A DNA stretch of 64,000 nucleotides from contig JAKTTT010000031.1 of the NCBI GenBank assembly GCA_030581615.1, positions 1-64,000 on the forward strand. Reading direction: 5' to 3'. The translations under genes were made by a program, and so were the position numbers. The notes under the pieces are model-generated. The model was not told the origin of the DNA. It saw nothing but the letters and a program-made list of their open reading frames with translations, and did not search any database. Source of the stretch: Alloascoidea africana (taxonomy: Eukaryota > Ascomycota > Alloascoideomycetes > Alloascoideales > Alloascoideaceae). Shown in pieces: positions 2,263-45,629 of this stretch. Within the stretch, counting starts at the first letter, position 1, and each line of letters opens with the position of its first letter.

Positions 2263-2265
2263 GAT

Positions 2266-2451: not shown

Positions 2452-2474
2452 TAGTAGCGGGAACGGTGGCCATG

Positions 2475-3670: not shown

Positions 3671-3815
3671 TGTAAGGGTTCGAGAAGGTTGGAGGCTACA
3701 AACACACTAGAATCGTTGATTGTCCCCCCATAAGGGGGGGCAGATGGGCTACTTATATAGACCTATCTAAGCCTCACTACTAGAGAGGGAGGAGATCACC
3801 CATCCGAGGCTAACA
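3671..3815 (-). repeat. Solo LTR, family F copy 1
   Basis: A 145-bp insertion inside the gypsy integrase region, starting TGTAAGGG and ending CTAACA, flanked on both sides by the 5-bp direct repeat ATAGG (3666-3670, 3816-3820). Read as reverse complement it begins TGTTAGCCTC and resembles 12290-12423, including a GGTCTATATAAGTAG-like TATA block. The paired duplications mark a clean integration later reduced to a single LTR. Confidence 0.75.
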
Positions 3816-3951
3816 ATAGGCTATGTATTCCTAAAGGAAAACCCCGACAAAAGTTGTGTTGTTGTATGACTATCACGAGGCCGAATTAGCAGGACATCCT
3901 GGATCATTCAAGACTTACGAATCGATCTCAAAGGAATATTACTGGAAGAAC

Positions 3952-5740: not shown

Positions 5741-6008
5741 GTGACGATTATTGCTCTGGCGTCTCTATACTTTACCTTCTTTTACAAACTATTTCCTTTA
5801 TTCTCTTCATAACGTTATACTATATCTTTTGTTCTTCTTAACGTTATACTTCTTCTTTTCTTTTTAGTTACTTTATTGCAATCTTGCGATGATTACTCTT
5901 TATTGTTATTGAATATCTTTTCTTTCTTAATTGCTATCAAGCTATATTCTTTTCTTGCTAGCAATAATCTGTTATTGACACGTTTACGTATACAATCTTT
6001 ATTTATCG
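5741..6008 (+). repeat. Probable 3' LTR of the plus-strand gypsy element
   Basis: The sequence begins TGTGACGATT immediately after a purine-rich tract, the usual start of a gypsy 3' LTR, and the upstream Pol frame ends at this point. The right boundary is uncertain; gypsy sequence of the opposite strand starts near 6016. No matching 5' LTR is present in the window. Confidence 0.5.
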
Positions 6009-6015
6009 TTGAAGT

Positions 6016-20164: not shown

Positions 20165-22117
20165 ATGGTCATAATTCCTTCTAAAAGCGGTGATGAACGA
20201 AAGGCCTGGGTTGCTACTCAGCATAAAGCGTTTATGCGATGGATGAACACATATTTTGAACCCCAGCATTTGACACCAGTAGAAAATTTAAGGACAGACA
20301 TGAGCGATGGAGTAAAACTTATACAACTGTTAGAGATAATTGGTGGAGAAAGCTTAGGGAGATACTCTCCAAACCCTAAACTACGGGTGCAAAAAGCAGA
20401 GAACCTGAATTTAGCTCTTGAATTCATCAAGCATCGTGGCGTGCAGTTTATCAATATAGGGGCAGAAGATGTTATCGACGGAAATCTCAAATTAATTCTT
20501 GGTCTTATATGGATGTTAATTCTGCGGTTCACGATTTCGGAAATCAGTGAAGAGGGCCTAAGTGCAAAAGAAGGGCTGCTGCTTTGGTGCCAACGCAAAA
20601 CTGCGGGATACCCAAGGGTACGTGTTCAGAATTTTACAAATAGTTGGAATGATGGCTTAGCTTTTTGTGCTCTTCTGGATAAACATCGACCAGATTTGAT
20701 TGATTTTTCAGAGCTGGACTTGGACGATCACAAGGGAAACATGAAGTTGGCTTTCAAGATTGCATCTGAGGAGATTGGCATTCCCCAGCTTATCGATGTG
20801 GAAGATATCTGCGATGTTCCGAAACCGGACGAACGATCTGTCATGACCTATGTAGCCTATTGGTTCCATGCGTTTTCAGCTTTGGATAAGATAGAAACTG
20901 CAGGAAGAAGAGTGGAAAGGTTTTGCGAAATGACGAGCTCTGCGCTTACAATGCAGAATAACTTTGAAAAAAGAATGGCGAATCTTCTCAAGGCTATTAA
21001 GGAAAAGATTGAATCCTGGAAAACTGCTACGTTTACAGGCGACTACAGCCATGCAAAGGAGCAGGGGAGACTGTTTTCGAGTTACAAAGTGAAGACAAAG
21101 CGGGAGTGGATCACTGAAAAATCGGAGTTAAACTTTTTACTTGGGAATATACGGACGAAGCTCGCAACTTATGGACTGAAAGAGTATGTACCACCGGCTC
21201 ATTTGAGCCTCGCGACGATGGAGAAAGCATGGTTCCAACTTCTCAAAGAAGAAGGTGTTCGCTCGCATCAGATCAACGAAACAATAACTAAGATCAAGGA
21301 AAGGCTAAAAGAACAATTTGCTGAAAAGGCGAATTATATTGGGGAAAATCTGAATGAGGTGTCCATGAGAATAAGTCAATTGGATGGCGAACTGGAGAGC
21401 CAATTAATTGGCATTACAGAACTGAATGACCAAGTGAAGCCGTTAGATGCACATTTAGTGGAATTGAAAGTGCTGAACGATCAGTTAATAGAGGCAAATA
21501 TTGAAGAGAACGACCACACAGTTTATACATATGAGGAATTGGAGTATGAGATGGGGCTGGTCAAGAACAGTGTGATAAAGAAGCTATCGTTTATCGAGAA
21601 TCAGATTGTGGCGCGAAGTATGAACAACCTTACGCCGATACAGTTGGAAGAGTTTGAGTCTATCTTCCGATATTTTGACAAGAGCCAGACGAACTGTCTC
21701 CATATGAACGAGTTCAGTGGAGCACTTGCAAGTCTTGGGATTGTGTACTCGGAGGATGAGATGCAAGAAATTTTTGAAGATGCAAGCAATGGACAATCTG
21801 CAATCAATTTTGAGCAGTTTATCAATTTTTTGGTAGATGTTACGGAAGACCAGCAATCTTCAGAACAGGTTTTGCAATCGTTTATTGAGATTGCAAATGG
21901 GAAGCCCTACGTTACCGAGCTCGACTTACAAAACTCACTCATTTCCCCTTCCACATTACAGAAACTGGAAGAATCAATGCCTGTTCATGGTACAGAGGAA
22001 GGGTATGATTATCTTTCGTTCATGGCGGATTTGGCCGGATTGTCGCTCTCAGATGTCGATGATGAGGTGTACTACCAAGGCGAAGGGGAAGAAGAGGACA
22101 ATAGGGAGGACTCATAG
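20165..22117 (+). CDS. ain1: Alpha-actinin (actin cross-linker)
   Basis: A 650-residue intronless protein. Two calponin-homology domains form the actin-binding region: CH1 at about residues 10-120 (LRTDMSDGVKLIQLLEIIGG, GNLKLILGLIWMLILRF) and CH2 at about 128-240 (SAKEGLLLWCQRKT, WNDGLAFCALLDKHRPDLID). A shortened spectrin-like helical rod follows (about 245-490), then two EF-hand-like motifs (about 495-565, FDKSQTNCLHMNEF and a degenerate second loop). This matches fission yeast Ain1, which bundles actin at the cytokinetic ring. I chose the ATG at 20165 because residues from there match the family; the in-frame region upstream to 20078 has no ATG and includes a possible intron. Saccharomyces has no such gene. 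Confidence 0.92.
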   Translation: MVIIPSKSGDERKAWVATQHKAFMRWMNTYFEPQHLTPVENLRTDMSDGVKLIQLLEIIGGESLGRYSPNPKLRVQKAENLNLALEFIKHRGVQFINIGAEDVIDGNLKLILGLIWMLILRFTISEISEEGLSAKEGLLLWCQRKTAGYPRVRVQNFTNSWNDGLAFCALLDKHRPDLIDFSELDLDDHKGNMKLAFKIASEEIGIPQLIDVEDICDVPKPDERSVMTYVAYWFHAFSALDKIETAGRRVERFCEMTSSALTMQNNFEKRMANLLKAIKEKIESWKTATFTGDYSHAKEQGRLFSSYKVKTKREWITEKSELNFLLGNIRTKLATYGLKEYVPPAHLSLATMEKAWFQLLKEEGVRSHQINETITKIKERLKEQFAEKANYIGENLNEVSMRISQLDGELESQLIGITELNDQVKPLDAHLVELKVLNDQLIEANIEENDHTVYTYEELEYEMGLVKNSVIKKLSFIENQIVARSMNNLTPIQLEEFESIFRYFDKSQTNCLHMNEFSGALASLGIVYSEDEMQEIFEDASNGQSAINFEQFINFLVDVTEDQQSSEQVLQSFIEIANGKPYVTELDLQNSLISPSTLQKLEESMPVHGTEEGYDYLSFMADLAGLSLSDVDDEVYYQGEGEEEDNREDS

Positions 22118-24499
22118 AATAGTTAGGATTAATTTTCATGACAGAATTGTACATTCTTTAGAAGGAGAGAGAAACTTTTGTGAGTAGGAATGGTAGCCCC
22201 TCCACTGTTAGGCTTACTTGTAACCCTAAAAAGTGTGGTTGTCAGCGGTAATGAAAAAGGAGAGTTGTATCGGTTGTCAAAGCGTGATTAGTTGAGTTCA
22301 TATCATCGTTCTAAAAGAGTAAATGGCATAAGAGTTTTCAAGTAAAAGATTTTTTCTCTGAATAATTCACCGAAGAATGAGGCAATTCAGCAAAAATCTC
22401 TCACGTCTCAAAGAATTATTTTACTTTTTTTTTTGTTTTTTTTTTTGTTTTTTTTGCTTACCTGACGCAATTCTGTAATCAGAATGGCATTAAAGAAACC
22501 AGAAGAACTAGGAGTGGAATTTTACTTTCAGGGTACTTTTCCATAGCCTGGTCAACCCTCAACATATCCACAAAAGTATCTGGAGATGCTTAAGTTTTTC
22601 ATCTATGCGTAAGACATCGATCGTAATGTGATACACGAGACGCACCGAAGCAATCTGCTCCTTTACTTTGTGATGGAAGAGGTAGAGCATGTGGAGGAGA
22701 AGGTGGACGAAGAGGGGAGAATAAAGTTAAGAAGAAAGTTGGGAAGATTTTCCTCTCTGAGATTTGCTTCTACCACAGCATGCTGATTCTGGCCCGGACC
22801 CTACATTGAGAAAAGAAATAAGAGAAGCAGATTTTACAAGGATGAAATGTACAGGAATTATCATTCGGACTAGAGTACCAAAGTAAGAAAAAGAAGAAAG
22901 AGTTTCAATTTAATGGTCAATAGTAAAGAGTTGTTGTTGGAATCAGGTGTCCACATATGTATACACAGGAGACGTGAAATCTCCGTACAAGCGACGTGGG
23001 ATTGATTTATTTTACCTATCTTCTGGTGAGGAAGAGAAGGAGAAAGAGAAATAGTTTTGTGTGTCTGTATGATCACCCAGTAAGAGCAATGGTAGAAACT
23101 AAGTTTAGGCAAACAGATGATAAGGTCACGGTCCAGAGAAGCCAGAAATCACTGTAAACAAAAAATAAAAGGGAGAGAAGGTTTTTTTTCTCTTTTGTTT
23201 GTCAGTCCAAATATATGTAGAGTTAGCGCGATAGGAGGATAGCCTCGGCTGTATTTGGAAGATTGTAGATGAGAATTCATTGGAATTGGAGGGTGTCTTT
23301 ATTCCCACGTAACAAAACTTTTCAAGTGAAGACTTGTAGAAATAAAGAATAGAAGAATGCTATTCTGACTGTAGTTTTATTGTAAGATAGTCTACCCCAG
23401 CAAAGGCTTTGATCTCCTAAACTCGATTTTGTAAGTTAGCTCGTTTTTCCGTTTTGAACGAGGATGATGATGGACTGGCTTAGCCCTTTAAGTAACATCA
23501 ACATGGGAATTCTTGCGCTAATGCAATACTTTTTTTTTCCTTTTATTTTTCTTTTTCGGGGTCATGTTGTTCAAAGAGTGGATGAAAACACAGAAGATTG
23601 CTTTTCAATAGCTGTAAGAACGACGTGGTAGGCAATATAGGATATGGCCCAAGTTGGACTCTTCTTCAGAAGCAACACAGAAATGAGTAATTTCTGTGTA
23701 AAGTTTTCTGTTTATAGAGAAAACGGAGAGAATGTTTACTTATAAGATTGAGACATGAAACCCTCTCTCTGTTTGTACTATCGCCAGTCCAAGACGAGGG
23801 AAGAAGAGAATATAGGAGCTTCGAGATAACAAAAGCCACATTATGTATTTCTTTTGCATTCTCATAGGCTTGAATATTTGTTATGGCACTTTTCTAAACA
23901 CAGTTGTCCCATTTACATAGGAGATGGTGATGAGGGGACAAACGAGGAAGGAGTTTACATAGTATGCTAGACGATACACAGGCCCAGGCCAAGCCACTGA
24001 TAATAATCTTTAAACCTGTGGCTGGGATTTCCTTTCTCTTTTACCTTTATCTTTATCTTTACCTTTTCTCTGTTTCTGATTTTTTTTCTGACTCTTTTCT
24101 ATTTCGATTCTTGTAATACGCTTGTTTATGAATTAGTTTACGTGGTACGCTCCCCGACTCCCGACTCCTAACCGGCTCGGACCATATATTCCAGCTAGTC
24201 TACAAATAAAGAAGCACTTCTACACAGAGACCTCAGGTCTGGATTTTCGCCTAAGATTTCTGTTCTTTTTTTTTTTTTGTTTTCTGCTGCTTTTAGCCGG
24301 GAGCACCCTGATTTTCTGGTGGATGTTATGCGCTTTTCTCACTCTCTCACAAAGCACCAGCAGGCTTATAATACGCATTCTTACCGGATTTGTAGCGGAG
24401 CCCGGGTGCAAGCCAGAAATGGGGTGACGGTATTAATACCAGCTTCGCACACCATGTTCCACCGCAGCACAGCGGCATGGCGTTGCAATCTCATTGTGA

Positions 24500-24930
24500 T
24501 TTACGAGCCTTCCACGCCCACGTAAATCGGGCGGTTTTACGCGAGGACAATACCCGGCCCGCGTGCAGTCCCAGGCCCTCTGGCCATGGCCATGGTGCCG
24601 GAGCTGGCCCTGGCGGCTCTGTCCAGCGGTGCCAATTGGCAGGCCCGGATTCGAGGTGGCAGAGCGAGGACGAAGGCCCCAGAGAGGGCCCAGCGAGGGC
24701 CCAGTGAGAGCGAGGATTACGGGCACTCGCAAAGCAGCGGGAGGCAAGGCGGCAAGCGGGAAGCGGGAAGCGGGAAGCGGGAAGCGGCCAGAGGCAAGCG
24801 GTCACGGCCTGCTGCTGCGAGATGGGCCAGGACGAGGATCCAACGGCCCACGAGAAGCGAAAAAAGAGAAAGAGAAAGAGAAAGAGAAAGGGAAAGGGAC
24901 AGCTCACCTTGGCGCTAAGGTTGTCCTTGC
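24500..24930. repeat. GC-rich island with tandem repeats
   Basis: It contains about four and a half copies of a 7-bp unit (AAGCGGG, 24754-24787) and a GAGAAA hexamer array (about 24863-24890), in sequence much richer in G+C than its surroundings. ORFs in several frames here are an effect of GC content and show no domain. Confidence 0.55.
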
Positions 24931-27900
24931 GGAGGCCTTTGTCGTTATCCCGTATCCTTCCCTCCCGTGCCCAAGAGCAGAAATCACAATCAAAATCACA
25001 GTCAAATATTCCAAAAAAAAAAAAACGGTCAAAAGTCAATAATGTTTCAAACCCGTCTTCGCTGGCATCAATAGACGGACTCAGGCGACGGCAATACCAG
25101 TAAAAATAACCCCAATAATCAGTCGATCACTACAGATTCACAAGTGGGCATGGGCCGGCTGGCTAATGCGAATTTGTGAACTGTCAACTTGACCTGTCTT
25201 CTTCCAGCCGCGGAGGAACATCTCCCGGAAATCCTCTAGTAAGCGGATAGCGCCCGCCAGATGGGCGCTTGCTCCTCCTCGCACGGGCCCTCCACAGCCC
25301 ACTCTCCCAGTCTCCAATCTCCAGCTCCCTGGCCATTTCCCGCTGATTATTACCTATCGCCCGTCTCTTCTGTCACTCCTGCTCTTTCATAGCCATCCTC
25401 TTCGAATTGATCTGCGCCGGGTCAATTGGATAATAGAAGTGGTCATGCGGTCTTACCTGCGAGTCCTCGCTTGCTGTGGCTCTCGATTTCCAATCCTGGC
25501 TTCATGTCTGTGAAAAATTAAGGTCATAAAATCCATAACATTTCCCTCCCAACATTCTGGTCTATCTGACTAGACAAAAAGCGAAGCTAATCTTTTTCTG
25601 GCCTGAGGTGTTTGTCTAGTTACCAGCATTTTAAACCTCAAGTCGTACCACAGTTTGCCCCTCCCATTCTTCTTCTCTCCTATGATTTCTCTCGTCACGT
25701 CCCTTGGTCCCTTACAGTTGGCCCTACCTACGGTACCACTTTCCATGGTTCCATGGTAACGACTTTAAATTTGCAAACGTTTATTGTAATGCTTGGAAAC
25801 AAGTAAACTTTCGTATGCAACCATTGTTCTCATCTTCATCTCCTTCACTGGCAGATTGCTCTATTCTTGTTCTATCAGCCACAATACCGATAACGATAAC
25901 ACATGCAAGTACAATTTCAAGATTCTCCCGAGTGAAAACAGCAGATCCAGAAGAAAAAATGTGTCATTTGTATCTAAATATACATGTACAACAAACAATG
26001 AATTCGGATTAACACTGCTTCATTTCCTTGGGGTAGTTATCGTTGTTGTGTGCCAGCGTGTGTATACATGTGTGTGTATGAGTGTGTGTAGTTAAGCTTA
26101 AAGTTGGACTAAACGGGGCCAGGAACAAGAACAAGAACAAGAACAACAACTGTGTATGTGCACACTGAGTGTATCCAGACCACCAAAAAAGACAAAAAAA
26201 ACCCTATATGTGCACCACCCTTTTACGAAGATTCGCAACTAGCATGGACCTGTTCTATAATACTTGTTTTTGAAGATCCTTGGAGAAACTCGATGTGGGC
26301 TGTTCTGTGAAAAGATCCTGATACAAAGTCATCATCAGATTAGACATGTGCCCAAGACAGGGTCCTAAATGAGAACATGAGGAATGATATCACCTTCAAA
26401 ACTACAAGTATACCCGATTCCAGTATCTGCATCATTCTTATATTCACAAAACGGCGCTGGTGGAGAAAAAAGATTAGCGTTTCCTATTATGCTTAAAAGA
26501 AGAATGTGTTTAGTGGCGAGTCAACACAAACTCAAAACAAGAACAAGAGCAAAACCAAACCTAAAAAAAAAAGAAATCTCAATGTTATGTATCTCTAGGA
26601 ATTGAGTCGGAGTCTGATTAGAATTTTCCGGTCTTTTTCTTGTCATTATTGCTTTTTTCGCTGCCTACTCAAAAGCTCTATTTTTTTACACTCATTCCAG
26701 ATCTAAACAAGTAGAGGCAAGACAAGAAAATTGAGTCTATAAAAGATTTGGCTTGGTGTCTTGTTGTTAAATGTAACAGGAAGCCTCTTATCTTGCCATT
26801 TTGCAGTTAGTAGAGGCTTATTCCTAGTTCGAAAAGTGCCCCTGCATAATACATGCAGCGCTGCGATGCACCTCAGCTCCAGTAGCTAAGGGACGAAAAT
26901 AAAATAAAATCGTCCGCTACCCATTCTAAGGCCGAGTTGAAACTGACAGTCTGAGATGTACCCGTGGATAGAAAGACACTCTACTGATTATTAATATCGG
27001 ATTCAAAAATAAGAGGAGGTATTTTTGTTTGTTTTTGCAAAGTGTCCTTTGGCGAAACTCCGCTAGAATTGGAACTGATAGGTCTGAACCTGGAACTATA
27101 GAGATTGGCACTAGACAAAAAAAAAGAAAAAAAAGAATAGAAAACTGCTATTTTTCCCTAGATTATAGATCTTCTATTCTCGTGGTTTCATCAGTTATCT
27201 ATGAATGATCGTCATTACTTGCATAAAAAAAACACGCTCTGAGTAGTTTCGGTCTCGGTTTATTTACGTTTACAATTACATTCATACCATCGACTTCGAC
27301 TTGAGTTCAAGTGGCTTGACAAGAGAGCCAAAGCTAGAACTAGAACTAAGCTAATCTAAAATTTAGCTACAACAGGAATTAGAGCTAGCGCTGCTGATAC
27401 GATTAGCCTTTGGGAATGGAATTGGTAATCCTCTTTTACCGATATTTACTTGTACAAGTTGAGTTTTAACCTGGTTTTGTTCTTTTGCACTTGTAAATGG
27501 ACTGTTAAATGGCTTTCAAAATACAAGTACAAGGCAAAATTGGTTTTATTCAAAAAGAACGTTTGGCCAGGTAAACTTGGACTGGCAACATATGATAGAA
27601 GATGTCATAAATTGTATTTGAAACTTTAAAAAAATAATAAGATGTAGGGTGCGCTAAGTTTCTGGATTGAATTAGAAAGAGAGAGCATAATGGTAGAGAG
27701 CCCTGACAAAGAAGTCTAAAGCTTGAAAAGTAAAATGGTCCAAATGGGGTTGTGCTCGACGAACTCTATAAGCCCTCTCTTATTACCACAGATCCAGAGA
27801 CATGTTCAACTCTATTTCTTTTGGTGTAGTTTGTTCTGTTTTCATAGATAAACAGATCTCTGTATTTGGAGAAGGGAAAAAGCTTTTTGTTCAGTTCATA

Positions 27901-28078
27901 CTTGAAATACACAAAGAGAAAAAGATGGTGCACCATTCTACCTAAATTGGAGAAGAAAAAGTCTGGTGCTGTCCTCTACGAGATGTTTTTCGCTTTGTGC
28001 TTTTGTCTTGCCACTTGTACACTACTGTAAAGGGGGATGACTACCTCCACGAAGAGTTCAACAAGTTCTTCTGTTTGC

Positions 28079-28107
28079 ATTTACATTTACATTTACATTT
28101 ACATTTT
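28079..28107 (+). repeat. CATTTA hexamer microsatellite
   Basis: About five tandem copies of CATTTA about 1 kb upstream of the pogo-derived gene. Confidence 0.8.
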
Positions 28108-29030
28108 GTAAAGAGCAGATAATTCTCACGTCAGCAGTTGATAATAACTAGGGGGAAAAAAATAACAGAGCACGATATGACTCTTTTTTTTTTGTTTTTC
28201 GTCGGAGTCATTTTTTCACTATGCCATTGGCCAAAGCATGAAAAAGAAGGAGTGTTTTTGTCAACTCCAGTGCGTACCGGTGCATTCCTATACCAACAAA
28301 AAACAAAAGACAAAAACAGAATTAAATCGAAAGATCTGGCTCTGGCTGACAGCTGTATATCAGAAACTCGCATTATGCCTTCTGTTTTACGATGGTGTTG
28401 TCTCTGATAGGATATTCCATATTCAAGTAGCAGTAGAACAGCAGCAGGAAGTAAACGGTGATCATGAGTCGCACGCTGCTGATAGTGGTGCCGGACCGTG
28501 GGGGTTGTCAGCACGCTCAAGAATGCGCCAGGCCAGGCCAGGCCAGGCCAGTCCAGTCCGGTCCAGAATCTGGCCCGAGCGAGAGAGCCTGCCTGCGCTG
28601 GCCTCAGTTTTTGCGGCATCGCCCGCGCATAACATCGCATGTGTTGTTATGCACATGCGGGTCCCCAACGCCCATGCGTGCGTGTGCGTTGCCACGCATG
28701 TGCACGCGTCCTATTGTTCGGAGGACCCGCTCGCCGTATTAAATTAAATTTGGATCTGTCTTTGACTCTGCTTTCGTACCGCTCTCTCTCTTTCTCGCTC
28801 GCTCCCTTCCTTCCTTTCTCCCCTCTCCCTGGCGCTCTTGCTCTTCCTCGTCTCTAACCTCCTGCTCTCCTTCTCTCTCCATCCCAGGCTTTCACCAGTC
28901 CTGCCCAGACCCCATCCAGCCCCTTCCTCTTCCCCTAACACCACCACCACCATCCCTCTAGTCTGTCTGAGCACTCGAGCCCCAGCTAGAGCCCCAGCCC
29001 CAGCTTGCGTCTCTGTCTCTGTCTGTGTCT

Positions 29031-29062
<32 letters not shown>

Positions 29063-29165
29063 CTGCGTGCGTGCTAGTAACGTCCCACTCATTCACCATT
29101 AATACCAATCCCATCTCCCTGGTCCTCCCGTCTGTCACCCTTCAACCGCCTACTGTTCGCCGGTC

Positions 29166-31868
29166 ATGGGAAGACTATCACCCGAAGAGGAGGCCAAAGT
29201 CCAGAACGCTCTGGCCGACATCAAAGCCGGCTATTATGGATCTTTTAAAGCCGCTAGGATATATGGCGTCTCACGCTCAACTCTGGAAGCAAGGCTTAAG
29301 GGCCGATCCTCAAACTCGTCAAAAGCTGCCATCGCGGCTAGAGCTCGCATTTCATCTCTAGGGCTGGGTCTGGGCGCAGCTGGTATGTTGCCCTCTGCTG
29401 CCTTCTCAACTGCACTTTCAAAGGAGGCCCAGGTCCAGCTCGACCAATCCCTCTCTCCTGAAGACGAGGCTAAAATGTGCAAATACATCGAACAGGCCAC
29501 CCGTTGTAGCCCGACTCCTCTCGACCAACGAGTCGTCCATAGACTGGCCGAGGCTTTTCTAAAATCCAGGGTACAAGAGGGCACCCAGAATAGACCTGGA
29601 GATGCAAATACTCAACTCGATAGGAATTGGGTCCGCAGGTTTTTGAAGCGACATCGTCAGTGCTCTACAATGGTTTCAATCGATCCCGGCCCCCAGCCTT
29701 TTTCAGATGCGGTTAAAGAGAGCTTTTTCAGTTGGATCTATCACGTCCCAGAATGTATCCAGTCCGGCGTGCCTTTACAAAACGTCTTCTTCGTAGATGA
29801 GTGCGAGTTTTCACATGCAAAAGTCAAGAGAGGCCCTTTTGTCGTCGACACAATTAACTCGAAACTATCCTCCTCCTCAATCTCTGCAACCACCTCTGTT
29901 TCAAGTGCTGGCTCGGCTTCAACCTCTACCACAGGAACCGTTGGCTCTTCATCCGTGCCTGATTATGAACAACAAATGCCAAGCCTGGCTAAAGATGACA
30001 CAATTACAGTGGTTGAAGCTATAGGAACAGATGCTGAGGTCATTGGCCCTGTTGTTGTTTTCAAAGGAGACAAGGTAAACGATTCATGGATCCCGCCAAA
30101 TGTAGACCAAAACTTTGTCTTTACATCAAGCGCCACAGGCAAGTCAACCGCGAACGTGGGCCTCCAATGGCTCGACATCTTCAGCAATCGAACTGTCCAC
30201 AAAGTTATAAAAGGAAAACGAGCAATTGTGCTTAGTGCAGACTCGGTATTCATATCACCCCAGTTTCTGGACATCTGCGAGTATAACAAAGTAGAAATCA
30301 TCTTACATCCGATTTATCAGCGGTGGCTTTTCGATGCTGTTGAAATTGTCCTCTACAACTCGTTAAAACAAAAAATGGATGAGCTGAGCAAGCAGCATGC
30401 TATTAGCTATGGTGGCTCCTTAACAATTACAAAACCCCAGTTTGTCAACTATTTCCAGGAAGCTCGAGCGTACTCTTTAAACATGGCTTTGGACCCTTCA
30501 AGCCAGCTGCCAAACTCAAGAGCGTTAAAATCTTGGGAAGCCGCATGTCTTTATCCTTTAATCCCAACAAGACTAATCAGCAAAATTCAAGATTACAAAG
30601 AGTGTCCAGTAGAAAACAGTTCTGATGACGATTTATATGGTGGCCTGAACACGGAGGAGCTATGCATAAATGGATTTTCAAACGTGGTCCGGGCAGTATC
30701 AATGGCCCCAGAACATATCAGAAACGAAGCCCAACTCGAGCTTAAAACCCTTTTGACAATTTTGAACGAAAGATCCGCCAAGAACAAAGCTGAAAATGCC
30801 CTGCAACAACAGTCTCAACAAGCCTCTGCATCCTCAATTCCTTCGTCATCGGCCGCTTCCAACTCCGCAGCCTCCTCATCCTCAATTCCACCCATTTCAT
30901 TAATTCCAAAAACCTCCTCTTCTTTATCAACGCACTCTGCATCTTCAATTTTCTCAACATCAACGACAGCTTCCCTTTCAACTATTCCAATGTCTGGTAC
31001 TGCATCTGTAAGTGGAGTCACTTCTAACAAAATGTCTAATACAGGTCAAGATCAACAACAGCATAACCTATCTTCAAAGCTGCCGGTTTTGCCGTCTCTA
31101 GACGTTGCGAACTTGCAGTTACAATCACCTTTACAAGCTCAACAAGTATCGTCTTCAGCTGCTAGTGGTAGTGTACAGCGACTAACAAATCAAGCTTCTT
31201 TTTCGTCTGCTCAGGACACAAAACCCCACGCACAATCGTATTATTCGTTGTCGACATCAAATAATGTTTCGAACCAGTCGTCAACTTCACCACAATTCCC
31301 TGATACAGGCATTGATATGTATAGTAACAACTCTTTTTATTACCAGCCAACATACCAATCCCAATCGCAAGCCCCATCTCAAGTTCAGGCTCAACAGCAG
31401 TATCAATATGGGACAGGAATTGGAACAAACACGACCGGAGGAAATGGTAATAGTAGTAATAATGGTCTTGGATATGGTTCGTATCCATCGATGTATGGCG
31501 GATCCAACTCGAACTTGTCAAATACCGGCATCCAAGGCATAGTCGGGGGCGGAGTTGGTACCGGCAGCGGTTCTTCATCTGCAAATGCCAGCTCTGCCAG
31601 TGGAATTGCTGGGGGCTATGGCGCAAACGCTGCAATGCCAGGTTCTCTGGTTTCTGGAGGTGGTGGTATTGGAATGGTTCCAGTAAATGTCAAAAGTAAT
31701 AGTGGCAGTGGAAACTATGCTATCAGTGGAGGAATGACCCAACCACACCAACAACAGCAGCAGCAACAGCAACAACAACAGCAACAGCAGCAGCAACGGT
31801 TACCTCCTCCTTTTCAAAATGTCCCTCAGAGTGGAGGCAATATGAGATATATGTACTTTAACGAATGA
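29166..31868 (+). CDS. Domesticated pogo/CENP-B-type transposase with Ser/Gln-rich tail
   Basis: A 900-residue uninterrupted ORF. Residues about 5-50 form a psq-type helix-turn-helix (YYGSFKAARIYGVSRSTLEARL). About 95-165 is a CENP-B/Tc5 helix-turn-helix ending NWVRRFLKRHR. About 185-470 follows the DDE_1 fold, interrupted by a Ser-rich insert. The first acid is kept (FFVDECEF), but the DGH motif reads LSADSVFISPQF and the third position appears to be Glu (FDAVEIVLYNSLK), so cleavage activity looks lost. From about residue 540 the protein is Ser/Asn/Gly/Gln-rich, with about 16 consecutive Gln near the C-terminus, as in transcription factors. I see no terminal inverted repeats around it. Likely a host DNA-binding protein of unknown targets. 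A recent transposon copy is less likely given the intact frame and tail. Confidence 0.8.
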   Translation: MGRLSPEEEAKVQNALADIKAGYYGSFKAARIYGVSRSTLEARLKGRSSNSSKAAIAARARISSLGLGLGAAGMLPSAAFSTALSKEAQVQLDQSLSPEDEAKMCKYIEQATRCSPTPLDQRVVHRLAEAFLKSRVQEGTQNRPGDANTQLDRNWVRRFLKRHRQCSTMVSIDPGPQPFSDAVKESFFSWIYHVPECIQSGVPLQNVFFVDECEFSHAKVKRGPFVVDTINSKLSSSSISATTSVSSAGSASTSTTGTVGSSSVPDYEQQMPSLAKDDTITVVEAIGTDAEVIGPVVVFKGDKVNDSWIPPNVDQNFVFTSSATGKSTANVGLQWLDIFSNRTVHKVIKGKRAIVLSADSVFISPQFLDICEYNKVEIILHPIYQRWLFDAVEIVLYNSLKQKMDELSKQHAISYGGSLTITKPQFVNYFQEARAYSLNMALDPSSQLPNSRALKSWEAACLYPLIPTRLISKIQDYKECPVENSSDDDLYGGLNTEELCINGFSNVVRAVSMAPEHIRNEAQLELKTLLTILNERSAKNKAENALQQQSQQASASSIPSSSAASNSAASSSSIPPISLIPKTSSSLSTHSASSIFSTSTTASLSTIPMSGTASVSGVTSNKMSNTGQDQQQHNLSSKLPVLPSLDVANLQLQSPLQAQQVSSSAASGSVQRLTNQASFSSAQDTKPHAQSYYSLSTSNNVSNQSSTSPQFPDTGIDMYSNNSFYYQPTYQSQSQAPSQVQAQQQYQYGTGIGTNTTGGNGNSSNNGLGYGSYPSMYGGSNSNLSNTGIQGIVGGGVGTGSGSSSANASSASGIAGGYGANAAMPGSLVSGGGGIGMVPVNVKSNSGSGNYAISGGMTQPHQQQQQQQQQQQQQQQQRLPPPFQNVPQSGGNMRYMYFNE

Positions 31869-34800
31869 GATTGTTATAATTATTATTACTATTACTACCA
31901 TTACAATTACCATTTTTATCCGTGGCTTCGTTTTGTATTTGCTTTTTTTGTTTATCTTTTGTTCTACATTTTCTTTTTTTCTCATCTTTGACTTAAAAAA
32001 AGTTGTGGCTTGTGCAAAAAGCCTAGGGGATAATCTAAATTGATAAAAGAGAAGACATATCCAGAGAAAAAGACTGTCTACTACACCATTTTGCAATCTT
32101 AATAATATCTACCCTGGCTTGTCATTTTAATGCTACTTCTTGGGGTCAAAAGCATTGAAAATACGCACTTGATAAAAACTGATATGAGTTGGAAATTTAT
32201 ATCGGGGGATATCTATTTCAACGTTGACACGAAGAATTCTGAGAGTGTGAGAATATATCACTGCAAGACTGTGTCGCTAACTAATCCCTGTGATACCATA
32301 CTTGCTATTTCTCGATTAACATTTGCTTCATTTTTGTTGTTTTTTGGTGCATATGTTATCTAATGCTATGACTACTATTACCACTCCTGTTGTTTCTTTT
32401 GTGGGTTATGATTTAACACTTGTAATTTATTTTGTACCGAGCTTTTGGTTTAATCCCTGGGACAAATACATTTGATTGTTCTGGTCGCTTTCTAAATGGC
32501 TTGGATCGATTAGAAAATCAGTAGACATGTGTGTGTGCGAGTAAAACTGAAGGATGGACCACAAATGTCTCTGTTAAACAACGCACTACTAGAATACTGT
32601 GCTTGAAAAAGCTGGTTTTCTGGTTTCCAAGGGGATCAAAAGAGAGGTTTCTTTCATTTTTGCAAGAGATAGATAACCGACAGAGAGTGCTTTGAAAGCA
32701 TTTATGGAACAGATGTATATAATGTGTCAAGTTTTGTTTCTTCTCGCTTCGCCTCGTTTAGATGTTCTATTGAAGATCGTCGTCACTATTGTCCTTTTCG
32801 CTTCGCTCTGTTGTGTTAAGCTTACCTAAAGTATACCATAATGTTACAACTAGTAGTTTAGGAATATAGACTTTCTTTTTAGTTTTCAGATGCGTTTATA
32901 TCTAAGCTTGGAATCTCGTTGTAGAGGTCGGATCTTTTCTTCTTTTGCTTTCGCACCTAGAACGAGTAGCTCATAGAGAATGCATGTACTAGGCTGGTTC
33001 ATAGATGAGGATTAGATGGCATTACTTTTTCATTAGAACTAAAAAAGTAAAAGAAATTAATATTTGGTGGAGCAAAACTTTTCATCTCATAAAATAAGGA
33101 GAACCGTGCTGTAAACCTCCCCATTTTCCCACATACTAAGGCATAAATGACCGCTGTAAGGAAAGAAACCCAGGGATAAATGCTTAAAGCTCTTTGTTAC
33201 CAATGCTTTCTACTACAGCCAAAGCGGTCATCGATTTTTCGGTTCCTAGTCAAGAAAAGAAAAGAGAAATATTGAGATATATAAACTCACAAATGTAGTA
33301 ATTCTTCCCGATTATATGCTTCCCTCGGGTTGGGTCAGAGGATATTGGACAGAGCAGATCTACAACAAGTCTTAGCTAGGCATTGTTACCGAGATCTTTG
33401 AGTCTTCATCATTTGCAGTTATGGGCCAGCCAAAGTTGGTTTGGTTTTGTAAAAGTTAGAGACCAGATGGAAGGGAAGGTGCTTGACGACGCACATTGAT
33501 TGAATAACGACCTAAGAGCTACCATAACCATATGGATTACCCGACAACTCTTTAGTTTGATTAAAAGTAACATAGAGTTTCTTTTTCGTATTCTGGGTTT
33601 GGCCATTTATAAGGTGGAGGGGTATTTTGCATTAATCATCATGTTCCTGATTGTGGGTGGAGAGGTTATCTGCGGCATTCTTTAGTCAGGCTATTTCTAC
33701 TCAGGCCGCAAGATACAGGTACAAGACTGTATTCGTTTGCAACTCGAGCATTCCTTGGCCATTGAGCGTTTCGTCTGGTGAAATTTTGGTGTAAAAATGT
33801 CTACTCTCCAGAATCAATTTTAACTATTCTTCTAGGCTCTTAATATGGAAAAACGCATACAACACCTTTGACCACTTGAGTATGTTGAATATAAATACCA
33901 CTGAAAGATGCTAGGGTCGAGTTCTCGTCTTCTGGAAGTGGGAACAGCTGGCTTAGTTCTTTTTTTTTTTGCTTCAATATCCAGGAAAATTCATTGGCCA
34001 TGTATAGTGAGTTAATATAACCATGCTACACCCTGTTCAAGATCGTAAATATCAGCGATGACGTTTGTGCCACTGCTTTTGCCTTATTACCTAGAAGTTC
34101 GTCTTTACTTGAGTAAATGAACATGGGTAGTTTTAACCCGACCCCTACTTGCTTGCTCAAAAAAAGGTGCATAAAATCCTAAGCATTAAAAAAATGTGAA
34201 CCATGTCATCTGCTGAAGTCGGAAGATCCTACCTATTTACTTGTGTGACAAATGTTTTACAAACGAATAAAGTTTTTACAGGTCAAGAATTTTAGTGAAT
34301 CAGGTTAAAGCTGATCCAGAAGCAATCTCAGCCTTTGTAAAGGCTTCTTCAATACCATCAACCATATAGAAAACATTTTCAGGGGTTTTCCACCAGGATT
34401 TGTCTATACGTTATTTTCAATTGAACAATCAATACTCCGTTGTATGGGTAGTATATATAGATCGTTTTCTATTTATGATGGTCGGGTAGATATTTTTTTT
34501 GTGTCTTGTGAAATTTTCAAATTGATTCCTTTCGCCTTTCTTTGGATTTACCAAGTAGTCTGACTCTTAACTAGTGAGTACAAACTCATTAAGCATTCAG
34601 AGGAAAATTGCAAACTGGATTTGATTAATAGGAATGTATCTCTTTTCTAAAGTTCGAAAAGGGCATGATGAAAGCTGGTAATCGTCCATTTTGAAGATCA
34701 AAAACCGGATTTTTTTTCAGTAAGGTAATTTGAAACTAGTAGCAACTCACATTCAAGTTGAAAAGTTTAAGCAAAGTGTAATATGTGCCTGACAAGTTGC

Positions 34801-37800
34801 ATCACATTTGCTTTTATATCTATCTTATTTCTTTCTATGGTCTTAAACTTTATAGAGCATCATTCAAGAAGATGGGATTTTTCTAATGATGATCATGAGC
34901 AATTTATCTTTAATACACTTAAAATTACTAAAATAGTGCTCTCGTTCGTTACAAATGACTTCCCACCACAAGTCCTAGCACAGATGAGCATGTTAGATGA
35001 ATAGAGCTATACTATAAAGGAAGACACACACAGTGTACTCATGTTTTAGATAGAAATCAGAATCCTCGATTCGAGCTAGGTTAGATCTCAATGTTCCCTT
35101 TCCCCAATTTCAAACTACCAGCAATACGCTACACAAAGAATTGTTTTTAAAACGGCATTTGATTCAGTGTATTTCAAGTTCTAACACCTTTATGAAACGT
35201 ACGAAAGTAGTAATTTTGTGGTTAAAACAGCTCATTTGTGTGAATTTTGGACAGAAATTTTTTTAAAGGAAAGATATTGTTTTCCTGTCATTTTAAAAAA
35301 CCATTAATATTGTTCAGGCATCGGCGAACTAGATATTCACTTATAAAGATTCTGCCTCAGGCATTTATTAGCCTCTGCTCATAACTTTTCTTGTATCACT
35401 TTCCCCTGTATTGTTACGCAATTCTTTTATTTTGCGCCTGTTCTACATTTTTGTGGATAATACAAAAGGCCTAGAGAAGTATGTCCATGTATTTCCATTG
35501 AGCCAAAATTTTTTAGTTTTTACTTGTTTGAATTCAGTGGGCTGAATGATAATCAAGGCGAGAAGATCTTGCCCCTGTGTCCATTTTCAAAGAAAAAATA
35601 GACAATTACGCAGGGCAAAGTGTCTTCTGACTAGAATCTTCAAGAGCAAATAGGGGACGATATTCAAAACCAAAGAATCCACTATCAATGAAGATATGCA
35701 AGCGTGAAAAGATAAGGAGAAACGGTTTTTTCTCTGTTGTAATAATTACATGAAACTTGCGAAAAAGAACAAGAATTACAGCTCTCAAAGTCATTATTTG
35801 ATTCAAAGTTGGGGAAACTACGGAGAAAAGGATCGTGACCTTGGCATAGACTCTGAAGAGAGAGCAGCCTTATTTAGATGCAGCATGTTATTGCAAGACA
35901 AGGACTTGACGAAATTCAATTCGCGATGCACCAAACGTAGAAACTCGCCTACGAATTTACAGTACTAAAATAATTGGAGTTAAAACCGAGTTGAGCTTTT
36001 TGGTGTCACAAGCATCTTTCGCATTCTTGTATAAACGGGCAGGAGGAATAATGCGAAAATAGTGGAAAATTTTCCAAAGCGAACTCGCCAAACCTGGATT
36101 GTGAGATCCAGATCCGCAATAGCTGGCGCTGACCATTATTGTTGTGGGGTAAAAAAAGTAAGACAGCGAATGCCTTTATTAAAATGTCCCATTTTCCATC
36201 CCACTTAACGGAGAAGGTTTGACAAGACGAAGGGCATCGCCATAACCATTACGGGATTATAACGATCTCGATTTGTTCTCCCATGAAAACAGTATTATCG
36301 GATATGCAAAACCAAAGGTTCGGCTCGCCTTCTATCATTGTGTTCTCCAACAGTCAGTTTGGAGCAAAAACAACTGCCTCTACATATGATCCCTGTTGAC
36401 AGGAATTCTTTTCGTGTTTATATTTTGTTTCTAAATGTCTCGGCTTCGGTAGACAGGGTAGAAAGCACGAGTAGCGTTGATTCGATCTTACTCGACTGCT
36501 ATACACAGAAAGGGGAAAGTGACACACGATTTTCCTGAGACATTAACTTCTGCAAAGGGGGACTAAACGCCGAACAGCATCATAATATAGGGTAGAGATC
36601 ATTCCAGAAGCAAAGAAAAGGGAAAAGGGCTCCATTTGCTTTCATAACCAGAACATTTCATTTGATTTCGGCCATTCATTTCCAGGCGATTAGGCGCCGT
36701 GGTCCTGTAGCGCCGGCTACCTGCTCCCGCCGCTCAGAAAATCGGGTGCCTTCCACACGGATTAGGGTGCTCCATATTAAATGTGTTCTAATATCGGTTG
36801 CAAGGCACCGAACCTGGCGCTTTTGCACGCGCACTTTTGGACAAGCGGTTGCCTTTCACTTTTTACTTTTGCACACACTTTCAAATTTGCAAAAAACATG
36901 TATTCCCCTAGGGCCTGAAGCTGGAAAATTCCATCCGCAATCTATCGATCATGTCCATTCCCAATCGTGGCGATTCCGCTCTTCGCTTCTTCTCTATCAG
37001 CACGTGGCAAGGGACGAACCGAATCGAAACAAGTAACTATGCACAGGCTAGAGCGTGGTTAAAGGCTGTTTGGCACTCCGTTGGACAGATTCAAGTTGAA
37101 TAGGCTAGAATAGAGAATCCCATCTACTAACGGCGACTACCTTACCTCTTCAATATGGATCCTTTCAGGATCCGATTTCCGCCAGAACGGTGAATTCAGA
37201 TGACTGTGTGTAGTTCCAGTTTCTCCTTCTTGACGCCTAATAGGGGTTGAAACATTTCCGATGGGAAGGGGAGCGAGGGTTTAGGCCTCACCGGCAGTAG
37301 CCACGGCTCTCTGGCATGATTAGGTGCAGTATCAGGGCGACAAAGAAGGCGAGAAGAGAAGAATAGTCTAGAGGTGCTCCGAAAATATGGGGAACCCAAT
37401 TATCAGCTGCTGGAACCACACATTTTTAGCTTTTGTTTGTCAATTGGGGGGGGGATGAGTCAAAAGGACTATTTTTATTTACCATGCCGGATAAGAGTGA
37501 TTCCAAATGGTAAAGCCTGTGCTCATTTCTAAACGTGATCCAGCGCTTTGCCGGTCGCCCATTTGATAATCGATAACGAGATGGTTGGTGACCATGGTCT
37601 GATCACACATGGTGCCAAAAACGCCACACCCAAGAAATACGGAAACAATAAGGCCAAACTTGGAACGGGAACTGAGCCTGGAGGAGATGACCACAATGTG
37701 CTAGTATCACCAGCATCGCCAGTATCACTCAGCGCATGTACCGAGATCATCGGTTGGACTTTGCACGTTGAAACCAGACTTTAAGTTTTCGAATAGTGTC

Positions 37801-38899
37801 ATGGCTACATACTGCTGCTGGGCAAAGAATGTGTGTAGACGACGATAAGACTAAACACCAAAATTTCAAAAGATAAGAGGCCAAAAGATGATTGGACGAT
37901 ACACGATTAAGCCCTTTTGATGACCACCCAGTCCACACGGCGTCAAACGTCTGTACTTGTGGAAAGCCTGGCTTAAACATGCTATCAACTGTACAAAGCA
38001 TCGTTTAAAGTGCCATTTTGTGCAGGTCAAGAGAGAGGAAGAGGGACCTTTCCACCAGACCGAGCGCTAAATAAATTCCAGCCAGGGCAAGCATTCCCGC
38101 TCTTCCCCAGAGCACAAACAGCATTGTTTGCTCACACAACCCTCTTTCTCACCCCCAGGTGTCGTGACTTTATTCCGCTCGCCCTGATTCCCAGTCATTT
38201 GCTCTCGCCCCACTCTGGACCAATTGTTAGTGTTTGGAGCTAAAAGGGCCCCACATCGGGCCGCGATCCGGGTAATTTCCACCGAGCGGATCTTAAATCC
38301 GCCTATTAACGGCGTTTATATTGTGGAGAAGAATCAGGAGCAGAGATGGATAGATCCCGTGTTTCGGTCTAAGGGGCCCCGATTGACGAACAGAGCAATT
38401 TTCAGATCCTTTTTTTGCTCTTTTTCATATTGTTGTTTCACAAGACAATAGGAGCAGCCGTTATGACGGTTGCAAGGCCAATATAAACGAGCATTGCATA
38501 GCTTTGACAATGCTCTTGTCTTGACAGGTATCTGTAACAGGATCTCTTGGCCATGTAGCGTGGATCCCTACAGTGCTTGTGATAAATGTAGTACTACAGT
38601 CGGGTGAAGAGGGCGTTTTTCCCCGGTGGAGCGGAAGCCGTTTGGAGAGAGTGGGGTAAAATGGGGACCCTTTAGATTGGACTCACAAGACTTTGTAGCG
38701 TATAGCGGGGGTAAAGGTCTCTAGATCTTCAATGTTGCCTGTTTTTCCTTTTTTCGTGGAGGGGAGGAGGAGAAGCGTAGAGGGAAGCGTAAAACAGACG
38801 AGCCGTGTATAAAGGGGCCTCAATTCTGTTGTTCAATTGTTCTTGTGTTTTTCCTGTTTTATTTTCACTAAAGAGCATAACAAGACAAAGAATATCAAA
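31869..38899. other. 7-kb intergenic region
   Basis: Beyond the 3' UTR of the pogo-derived gene I see no supported gene on either strand; the ORFs are short and compositionally random. AT-rich, with no clear transposon ends. The right end (about 37000-38899) becomes less AT-rich and holds the ATO promoter. Confidence 0.5.
38706..38813 (+). promoter_or_regulatory. ATO promoter: GCGGGG site and TATA box
   Basis: TATAAA at 38808-38813 lies 87 bp before the ATG. GCGGGG at about 38706, with a CCCCGG upstream (38621), resembles the Mig1/CreA repressor core (GCGGGG / CCCCGC). ATO-family genes are glucose-repressed in yeasts. The sites are seen; repression is inferred. Confidence 0.35.
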
Positions 38900-39715
38900 A
38901 TGAGTAATGCCTATGATCTCGAGAAAGCAGCCGTTTCGGTGGATTCCAATGGCGAATTGCCAACGCAAACGCGATCAGGGTTGGCACAGGTGCAGTCCTC
39001 AGGCCCTAACAATGAAATAATCCATATCGGAGACATGAAGGTAAACAAGGACGACTTTATTCGAGCTTTTGGTGGCAGCCTTGTCCCGGGACTGATGCAT
39101 GCCCCTGTTCACAAGTTTGCAAATCCTGCTCCTCTGGGACTTTGTGCTTTCTCGTTGACCACTTTTGTACTGTCGCTGTGTAATGTTCAGGCAAGGGGGG
39201 TTACGGTGCCCAATGTTGTCGTTGGATTAGCATTTTTCTATGGAGGTCTGGTCCAGTTGCTTGCGGGAATGTGGGAGCTTGCTGTTGAAAACACTTTTGG
39301 AGGTTGTGCTCTTTCAAGTTATGGCGGCTTTTGGCTTTCCTACGGGGCGATTCAAACAGAATGGTTTGGCGTTATATCGGCCTATGGGGATGATAAATCT
39401 CAATTGCAGAGCGCTCTTGGTTTCTATCTTATTGCATGGTTTATTTTCACGTTTATGCTTGTGCTGTGTACTGTGAAATCAACAGTTGCATTTTGTTCGC
39501 TTTTCTCCTTTTTAGCTCTGACGTTTTTGATGTTGGCAATCGGAGAGTTCCAAAGCAGCATTGGATGTACAAAGGCAGGAGGCGTTCTTGGTGTGATTAC
39601 TGCTTTTATCGGTTGGTACAATGCCTACGCTGGTATTGCAAATCCTGAAAACTCCTACTTGGCCATAAAACCAATCTATTTGCCCGGTGCGGCGAAGCCC
39701 GAGAAAAAGGATTGA
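38900..39715 (+). CDS. Acetate/ammonium transporter, GPR1/FUN34/YaaH (ATO) family
   Basis: A 271-residue membrane protein. After a hydrophilic N-terminus, the family signature NPAPLGL occurs at residues 75-81, followed by about six membrane segments (LCAFSLTTFVLSLCN, VVGLAFFYGGLVQLLAGMWE, SYGGFWLSYGAI, FYLIAWFIFTFMLVL, SLFSFLALTFLMLAIGEF, GVLGVITAFIGWYNAYAG). The N-terminal cytosolic part has the GGSLVPG region seen in Ady2/Gpr1. Members carry acetate and other short carboxylates with protons at the plasma membrane, or have been linked to ammonium export. The start at 38900 gives the normal N-terminus and follows TATA by 87 bp; in-frame sequence upstream lacks an ATG. Which paralogue it is cannot be decided. 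Confidence 0.9.
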   Translation: MSNAYDLEKAAVSVDSNGELPTQTRSGLAQVQSSGPNNEIIHIGDMKVNKDDFIRAFGGSLVPGLMHAPVHKFANPAPLGLCAFSLTTFVLSLCNVQARGVTVPNVVVGLAFFYGGLVQLLAGMWELAVENTFGGCALSSYGGFWLSYGAIQTEWFGVISAYGDDKSQLQSALGFYLIAWFIFTFMLVLCTVKSTVAFCSLFSFLALTFLMLAIGEFQSSIGCTKAGGVLGVITAFIGWYNAYAGIANPENSYLAIKPIYLPGAAKPEKKD

Positions 39716-43841: not shown

Positions 43842-45629
43842 CTATGATTGGAACACGCCAACTGCATTGGCTAAAGTTGTGGTACTTGTTGGTGGAGAGT
43901 AATGCGCAAGTGGAGGAGAAGATGAGCCGGGGGACCAAACAATGGATTCCCACTTTGGTGCCGCTGTTTTAAATATAGAACGGTCTTCAACTACACTGGA
44001 GCTCGATACAGAGCTTGCCGAAGTTTCGTAATCGTTTTGCTGATGCTGATGCTGATGATGATGCTGATGCTGATGTCGATGCTTATGGTGTCGCTTCTTG
44101 TGGTGTCTGCGCTTCTTTTGCTGTTTTGAGTTTTTAGACTCGCTGTATGATGAAGAAGACGAGGGTTCGGTCATTTTGGAGCTGGTGCTACCTTCCGGGT
44201 AGTTTCCATAATACTGATCGTGATAATCAACAAGCGAGAAAGAATCAAACTCATCGTCATCTGTGCCCAGAGCAAAAGGCTCTTCTACATTGTTGTTCAC
44301 ACTGTTTGCGTGTGGGTGGTAAACCAGAGAGTTATAATCGTACCTGTAATCATAACCTCTGTATGTGTTTGTATTGTGGGACTGGGCATAGATTGTATCG
44401 TAAGTCACGGTGTTTGAATCGCTGAGAGTATCCTCTTCCATCTCAAAGTCGTTAATGCTGGAGACGGACACAGATCCCACGCTTGATGTGGAGGATTGGT
44501 CATCAAAGGACTTTTTCAGAGTGGTTGAGGGCAGCGCGCTGATTGTCTGAACCAGCTTCGATTGGCTTCTTCCTCGAGGCAGTTTCTCCGGTTTAGCGGA
44601 GAAGAAAAATCCCGCGTCTTCTTCATTATCGTAATCATCTTCTGATGAAGAGGAAGAAGAAGAAGAAGAGGAGGAGGAACCGGTGCTGTTGAACGAAGAG
44701 CGGCTGACGGTTCTGTAAACGTCGTCTTCACTAATTGCAATGCACTGTTCCACGGTTTCGTTAAAGTGGATTCTCTTCTGGGGTTTTGCAGAAGACCAGG
44801 CAGAGCTTGTGGTTGATCCGTAGGAAGAAGACAAGTCGCAGGAGTTGTTTGACCAGGAATAGTTTGAGGAGTAAGAGTTTGTTCTTGAAGTTAGAGAAGA
44901 GTGGGGGCGCTGGAGTTTTTCCAGAGTCAGGTTTGATTTCAGGATCATCATTTCAGATAGAGATCTTTTCTTTAGGATTGGCTTAGTTGGGGTTTCGGGG
45001 ACCTGAGGAGAGGCCGAAACAGTTCTTCTCAAAGGAGCATCGTACTGGATCTTTTCGGAGTACCTGTTTGGTTTCTGGAAGGATGGGCTGTTTGTGACAG
45101 TTGTGGTATTGTCATCATCATCATCATCATCATCGTCATCGTCTAGCAGGGATTCGTGGGATGAGTACAGAGGCCCGTAGAGCCAGGTTACATCCGAGTC
45201 CTTTGACCAGTTTACGGATTCGGGGGAAACAGTTCCCAGGTTGAACTTTGACTTCATCCAGGTTCGCCAGCTCGCGTTTTCTAGTCTTGAGGCGTTATCG
45301 ACCTCATCGCGATAGCTGATTACGTATTTCCAGGAGTTGATGATCTCTGACTCTTTCCACTTGTGGGAGAAGTAGTCGACGTGTTCCTTTGGCTCGTAGG
45401 CGATGGAGGAGTCGTCGAGGGGAGGCAGGACGAGAGGGAAGGGGGAGTCTGGGGGATCGCTTGACTCGGATGTGGAGCATGTGGAGAGCGGTGCCACGGC
45501 CAAGTCCATTTCGAACATGTTGTTTGAGTAGCAGGCAGGCATGTTTGCGGGCAGGTTCCCCGTGGAGGAGGACCGTCGCAGGTTGTGGTTGTAGTTGTAA
45601 GCTTGGTGTGAGTCTATAGCAGCCGTCAT
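43842..45629 (-). CDS. REG1: REG1-like regulatory subunit of protein phosphatase 1
   Basis: A 595-residue, largely disordered protein. Residues about 82-155 contain the Reg1/Reg2 block (HVDYFSHKWKESEI, SRLENASWRTWMKSK, SPESVNWSKDSDVTWLYGPL). KRIHF at 285-289 is the RVxF-type docking site for PP1 (Glc7), followed by NETVEQCIAIS, also conserved in Reg1. An Asp run (about 163-173), a Ser run and a His-rich segment near the C-terminus (KKRRHHKKRHHKHRHQ) are low complexity. Reg1-Glc7 dephosphorylates Snf1 and maintains glucose repression. I chose the ATG at 45629: TATATATA at 45713-45720 lies about 85 bp upstream and inside the longer frame, which has no ATG. Confidence 0.9.
   Translation of the reverse strand: MTAAIDSHQAYNYNHNLRRSSSTGNLPANMPACYSNNMFEMDLAVAPLSTCSTSESSDPPDSPFPLVLPPLDDSSIAYEPKEHVDYFSHKWKESEIINSWKYVISYRDEVDNASRLENASWRTWMKSKFNLGTVSPESVNWSKDSDVTWLYGPLYSSHESLLDDDDDDDDDDDNTTTVTNSPSFQKPNRYSEKIQYDAPLRRTVSASPQVPETPTKPILKKRSLSEMMILKSNLTLEKLQRPHSSLTSRTNSYSSNYSWSNNSCDLSSSYGSTTSSAWSSAKPQKRIHFNETVEQCIAISEDDVYRTVSRSSFNSTGSSSSSSSSSSSSEDDYDNEEDAGFFFSAKPEKLPRGRSQSKLVQTISALPSTTLKKSFDDQSSTSSVGSVSVSSINDFEMEEDTLSDSNTVTYDTIYAQSHNTNTYRGYDYRYDYNSLVYHPHANSVNNNVEEPFALGTDDDEFDSFSLVDYHDQYYGNYPEGSTSSKMTEPSSSSSYSESKNSKQQKKRRHHKKRHHKHRHQHQHHHQHQHQQNDYETSASSVSSSSVVEDRSIFKTAAPKWESIVWSPGSSSPPLAHYSPPTSTTTLANAVGVFQS

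Follow-up and report, generated by a model that had tools for sequence, protein, structure and literature searches.

Introduction

Host proteins derived from pogo transposases have been traced to different element families. Lemi elements, which combine an HTH_ABP1_N with a Tc5 helix-turn-helix (HTH), are the source of Cbp1 and Cbt1-7, and pogoR is the source of CENPB (PMC10085805). Fot/Fot-like elements, in which a psq domain is combined with Tc5, are recorded for Pezizomycotina and Basidiomycota (PMC7386202), and from the budding yeast Yarrowia lipolytica an element of the Fot1 type, Fotyl, has been reported (PMC5014426). Here we describe a gene in a stretch of 64,000 nucleotides from Alloascoidea africana (contig JAKTTT010000031.1, positions 1 to 64,000 of the forward strand), referred to below as the window. 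We read this gene, with a probability of roughly two in three, as a single-copy Fot/Fot-like pogo transposase domesticated into a DNA-binding protein that regulates transcription.

Pdc2 of Saccharomyces cerevisiae and Candida glabrata binds DNA through its N-terminal 485-494 residues and activates through a disordered C-terminus, both of which are required (PMC10246790); the words transposase, transposon and CENP are absent from that text. The psq domain is included among the fungal transcription-factor domains (PMC5415576). For the psq proteins of Fusarium, the status of bona fide factors is described as still to be studied, and psq was absent from both yeasts compared (PMC10056406). A kingdom-wide screen, which names CENP-B and Abp1/Cbh1/Cbh2, reported a higher co-option rate in Saccharomycotina, and the words psq and Pdc2 do not occur in its main text (PMC10799480). 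Among the matches listed from the open-licence literature, we found no psq- or Fot-derived regulator in budding yeasts.

Results

Domain organization of the protein

The focal gene occupies 29166..31868 (+), stop codon included, and its 900 codons are open throughout without interruption, as the initial annotation had stated. The profile search proposed there was carried out against Pfam, and all three domains of the product (P0001) scored above their curated cut-offs: HTH_psq at residues 15-48 (29208..29309), HTH_Tnp_Tc5 at residues 100-165 (29463..29660) and DDE_1 at residues 281-404 (30006..30377). The psq and Tc5 scores were modest, that of Tc5 (22.3 bits) exceeding its cut-off of 22.2 by 0.1 bit. 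The three domains are those of the Fot/Fot-like layout (PMC7386202), and the combination of psq with Tc5 suggests that the gene originated from a Fot/Fot-like pogo element, and not from Lemi or pogoR. The two HTHs had been annotated as being of the pogo/CENP-B type; both are present, but the layout is of the Fot type and not that of CENP-B. CENP-B_N was not among the Pfam matches of the protein at E values up to 1, and an own-genome search with HTH_ABP1_N (PF18107) listed places in C57, C92 and C29 only, the focal gene not being among them. Orthology to CENP-B or Cbp1 was rejected, because the first HTH belongs to another type, psq.

Structure prediction gave a mariner-like core, the DDE_1 region being predicted as an RNase H-type fold, with moderate model confidence except in part of the core. 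The predicted fold of the Tc5 region resembles the second DNA-binding domain of CENP-B (Foldseek, second look). With the HTH model, 0 of 37 Foldseek matches reached E <= 0.001; no psq or pogo structures appeared in the match lists, an absence that is uninformative. A PDB sequence search gave no match at E values up to 1, and NCBIfam gave none for P0001, its homologue P0002 (described below) or one Pdc2-like open reading frame (ORF) of the genome.

A Ser/Thr-rich linker (residues 229-273, 29850..29984) is inserted within the core, as seen in the sequence, in the alignment with P0002 and in the predicted structure. The C-terminal part (residues 541-900, 30786..31865) is of low complexity and rich in Ser, Gln, Gly and Asn, the composition having been taken over residues 546-900, and it is likely a disordered region that binds co-regulators. 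The annotated Ser/Asn/Gln tail was said to end in about 16 Gln. The longest Gln run is indeed exactly 16 residues (862-877, 31749..31796), but it is followed by 23 further residues up to the C-terminus, and 11 of the last 20 residues (881-900) are identical in P0002.

Catalytic positions

The triad positions were read from an alignment with L017, a remnant of an element in the same genome that retains D-D-D. The first Asp is kept (D211, codon 29796..29798), the second is replaced by Ser within the motif LSADS (S357, 30234..30236), and the third position is Glu (E393, 30342..30344) where P0002 has Gly. The resulting D-S-E is not the acidic triad of a mobile Fot element, and the eroded core with Asp, SADS and Glu described in the initial annotation was recovered. 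S357 and E393 are separated by 35 residues, and this stretch is ungapped against L017; the spacing is the DD35D described for Fot/Fot-like elements (PMC7386202).

D211 lies within a predicted strand (207-216) and S357 at the end of another (352-357). The first two acids of an RNase H-type fold sit at such strand positions. An intact triad, named beforehand as an outcome contrary to domestication, is excluded by the sequence alignment together with the predicted strand positions. The triad of P0002 is D-A-G, so that the second site is gone in both proteins and the third is acidic in P0001 only. With two of the three catalytic residues changed, catalysis has very probably been lost in the focal protein, which is predicted to be incapable of DNA cutting or transposition.

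Copy number and terminal repeats

A DNA search with the focal gene against its own genome (23.18 Mb in 138 contigs; 40 of 102 first-look candidates scored) found one full copy. The 53 matches comprised the gene itself and 52 matches to a CAG tract only (31736-31806), and no second copy was found among the candidates scored. At the protein level, the best-scoring other match in the genome covered part of the core, with 25% identity.

Terminal repeats were searched in the flanks, as ungapped repeats or short BLAST matches. When 1.5 kb of upstream sequence was compared with the reverse-complemented 1.5 kb downstream, no match exceeded 17 nt at 88%. Where inverted pairs enclosing the ORF were listed, their arms were T/A-rich and of low complexity. 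The reported lack of terminal repeats thus held in these searches, and multiple copies bordered by terminal inverted repeats were not found in the genome. A single copy and no terminal repeats are also the grounds applied to Cbt7 (PMC10085805). From copy number, ends and triad, a mobile element was rejected for this locus.

Pogo debris is present elsewhere in the genome, including a frameshifted psq fragment at 9798-10600 of the window. The remnant as a whole (9798-10785) is a frameshifted pogo/Fot piece with a psq domain, half of a second HTH and a zinc-knuckle-like end, and short psq frames of this kind are dispersed through the genome.

Conservation in the homologue

Three protein searches, using residues 1-560, residues 1-60 and a six-row profile (A2), gave one homologue among the matches listed, P0002 (854 aa, source 'lgn'); in two of these searches the candidates considered numbered about 7990. 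The two proteins are 41% identical across 834 columns, and the identity is distributed very unevenly. In the psq part, 47 of the first 49 residues are identical (96%), as compared with 40/70 in the Tc5 region, 66/137 (48%) in the core and 15/45 in the Ser linker; the stretches other than the first 49 residues are 33-57% identical. The excess of the first 49 residues over the core gave p = 1.9e-10 (Fisher's test, with one homologue). This contrast suggests that DNA recognition is the most strongly constrained part of the protein and what selection keeps, as would fit a DNA-binding regulator.

Other pogo-derived proteins in the genome

Other proteins of the genome agree with a budding yeast as the source: the lipase L038 bears only a remote resemblance to 1thg, a Geotrichum candidum lipase, whereas for cytochrome c1 and ribosomal protein L3 the nearest chains are those of Saccharomyces, Candida and Kluyveromyces, YALI0A17468p ranking lower for cytochrome c1. 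Own-genome searches found DDE_1 at 21 places (20 above the cut-off), Tc5 at 22 (19 above) and psq at 54 (49 above), many of the last in short or broken frames. Sixteen long open frames of pogo origin were recognized, including the focal gene. Beside it, seven psq-DDE proteins form two families, named here from their N-terminal letters, in which the triad has been lost in different ways: the three NSPREI proteins (L002, L003/L036, L004) have D-N-D, and the four MSRRLS proteins (L005, L006, L008, L027) have S/T-D-K with a three-residue gap at the second site. L019 (L019:1033-2847 (-), G000:C29) encodes 605 aa from its likely start at one locus, with an aligned triad of D-D-D and a Tc5 match slightly below the cut-off; L015 is a frame of 430 aa.

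Three proteins carry psq with no DDE_1 match. L030 (L030:358-3279 (-), G000:C40; 974 aa) has six psq domains (Pfam E 2.9e-42), a tandem psq arrangement in a yeast; L031 (L031:845-2527 (+); 561 aa) has two psq domains and a Tc5 near the cut-off; and L032 (L032:359-1996 (-); 546 aa) has psq and Tc5. Both L031 and L032 contain Gln-rich stretches.

Three further frames with Tc5 and DDE_1 (L009, L010 and L011, in G000:C29, C92 and C57) are what we take to be Pdc2-like. Pdc2 is itself of pogo origin and contains HTHs, and the Pfam matches of these look-alikes support that origin. S. cerevisiae has one PDC2, and the three frames here possibly reflect an expanded control of thiamine or pyruvate decarboxylase.

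A tree of 15 rows, built from own-genome proteins and P0002 with no reference transposases, separated the Pdc2-like proteins and L015 from the rest (100/100). The focal protein joined P0002 (100/100, stem 1.93), and the NSPREI (98/99) and MSRRLS (100/99) groups were recovered. The tree did not fix in which order the psq groups branch or where the remnant L017 belongs, and long-branch warnings were given; it would fit a single domestication with later divergence as well as several domestications.

These proteins may form a regulator family of the yeast's own, derived from Fot-type pogo elements, with eight psq-DDE proteins in three lineages (D-S-E, D-N-D and S/T-D-K) and three core-less psq proteins, one of which has six psq domains in tandem. 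In that case the focal gene would be a divergent, lineage-specific regulator. We put this forward tentatively, at somewhat less than even odds. The domain matches speak against so tidy a family: psq scored above the cut-off in 3/3 NSPREI but in 2/4 MSRRLS proteins (one below, one unlisted), the NSPREI genes were not among the matches of the own-genome Tc5 search, and of the three Pdc2-like genes, one had HTH_ABP1_N above the cut-off.

Flanking regions

Upstream, no ORF of at least 220 aa is present between a CH/EF-hand gene (20165-22117) and the focal gene (22118..29165), nor downstream (31869..38899) before a Gpr1/Fun34/YaaH-family (ATO-type) gene at 38900-39715; the next such ORFs lie 6988 and 6947 bp away. 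This measure misses introns and small genes. Rfam and ARAGORN listed nothing in the 64-kb window, and three ORFs of the upstream flank (24586-24915, 28238-28744 and 28131-28640 minus) had no Pfam match at E values up to 0.01. The codon-usage scores of three flank ORFs (24396-24704, 24526-24915 and 37539-37781) fell inside the range of the known genes of the window. Since this test is weak and some short ORFs are in range, the flanks may hold short or spliced genes. The gene had been described as standing alone between two gene-free regions of 7 kb, which applies to long ORFs and may not extend to short or spliced ones.

Isolated loci with long flanks are known for yeast master regulators, and by the isolated locus and this analogy the focal gene might be one. 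For comparison, 20 random 10-kb stretches were drawn from contigs of known length, and in the first five, of which three lie on C1, inner gaps reached at most 3330 bp and ORF cover was 35-95%. The focal gene is genuinely isolated, though not uniquely so: the window is ORF-poor overall (31% cover) and contains another, longer gap of 8258 bp with the psq remnant inside. For the 2 of 15 other pogo-derived genes whose wide flanks were compared, the gaps were 1938 and 2241 bp (NSPREI_C12a) and 3559 and at least 7730 bp (NSPREI_C1).

Among other features of the window, GC-rich or codon-like short frames at 24396-25126 and 37539-37781 (GC 0.53 at 24-25 kb) are possible short or spliced genes. About 4 kb past the Gpr1/Fun34 gene, a 595-aa protein (43842-45629 (-)) with an N-terminal GATA_AreA domain is a regulator candidate. 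A 721-aa ORF at 53379-55544 (-), in a GC-rich stretch, had no Pfam match at E values up to 0.01. Retrotransposon fragments occupy 51-8657, at the end of contig C31, with matches to SH3_retrovirus/gag_pre-integrase, integrase core, RT RNase H and aspartyl protease.

Discussion

That the focal gene is a domesticated transposase is highly probable, because a single copy without recognizable terminal repeats was found, two catalytic residues are lost, and a homologue with the same domain layout shares 47 of its first 49 residues. The initial annotation had proposed an undescribed regulator built from a transposase. The domestication is well supported, but the genome encodes a whole set of pogo-derived proteins, to which this one belongs. 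The step to a transcription factor is suggested by the layout and by the parallel with Pdc2. The psq and Tc5/CENP-B-type HTHs would read a bipartite DNA site, the dead core would serve as a scaffold or dimerisation body, and the Ser/Gln-rich tail would recruit co-regulators. This would be the plan of Pdc2, a proven activator, with another first HTH.

The main rival is a role in genome defence or chromosome architecture, in which the protein would bind and silence retrotransposon repeats like Cbp1/Abp1 and would not control genes. Retrotransposon remnants do occur in the genome, some within the window, and the Cbp1 family consists of dead pogo transposases that bind long terminal repeats and repress retrotransposons (PMC10085805). 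However, the first HTH of the focal protein is psq and not the HTH_ABP1_N searched with PF18107, and the long Ser/Gln-rich tail would fit an activator better; we consider this role unlikely. Much less probable still is a protein that cuts or nicks DNA for a host recombination task. D211 is retained, Asp359, two residues past the old second site, is present in both P0001 and P0002, and some domesticated transposases stay active (PMC10085805). A shift of the second role to Asp359 would be the sole catalytic reading left, but the two proteins differ at the third site, Glu in P0001 and Gly in P0002, which leaves P0002 at least without a triad.

A Fot-type element that is still mobile or has arrived recently would explain the domain layout and the pogo debris in the same genome, but we give it very little credence, as neither a second copy nor terminal repeats were found and two catalytic positions are altered. 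Equally improbable is a functionless, drifting relic, since 900 codons remain open and a contrast between 96% identity in the first 49 residues and 48% in the core would hardly arise without selection. The domesticated, DNA-binding regulator of transcription is the reading we prefer.

Whether fungal psq proteins are true factors becomes directly testable with a single-copy psq protein whose core is dead and whose psq domain is near-invariant. Three lineages with distinct triad losses in one genome offer a test of the frequency and order of the change from transposase to regulator. If the family proposed above is real, it would be a transcription-factor class not on record for budding yeasts in the literature searched.

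The known domesticated pogo transposases, CENP-B and Cbp1, stem from other pogo families than the focal gene. Cbp1/Abp1, Cbh1, Cbh2 and Cbt1-Cbt7 of fission yeasts and Dipodascaceae are, like the focal protein, domesticated pogo transposases that carry two HTHs and a degenerate catalytic site (PMC10085805), but the Cbp1/Cbt proteins are of Lemi descent whereas the focal gene has the Fot/Fot-like layout. Mammalian CENP-B is derived from pogoR (PMC10085805), and the focal protein differs from it in having no CENP-B_N match. With Fot/Fot-like elements such as Fotyl, the focal gene has in common the psq plus Tc5 DNA-binding part and the DD35 spacing; these elements have terminal repeats, however, while none were found at the focal gene, where two catalytic positions are altered. 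With the psq proteins counted as fungal transcription factors, it shares the psq domain. Pdc2 and the focal protein are built alike, with a pair of N-terminal HTHs, a DDE core that also lies in the N-terminal half, and a disordered C-terminal half. On the other hand, the first HTH of the Pdc2-like ORFs of this genome is of the HTH_ABP1_N type (1/3 over the cut-off) and that of the focal protein is psq, and in the tree a split with 100/100 support sets these ORFs apart from the focal gene.
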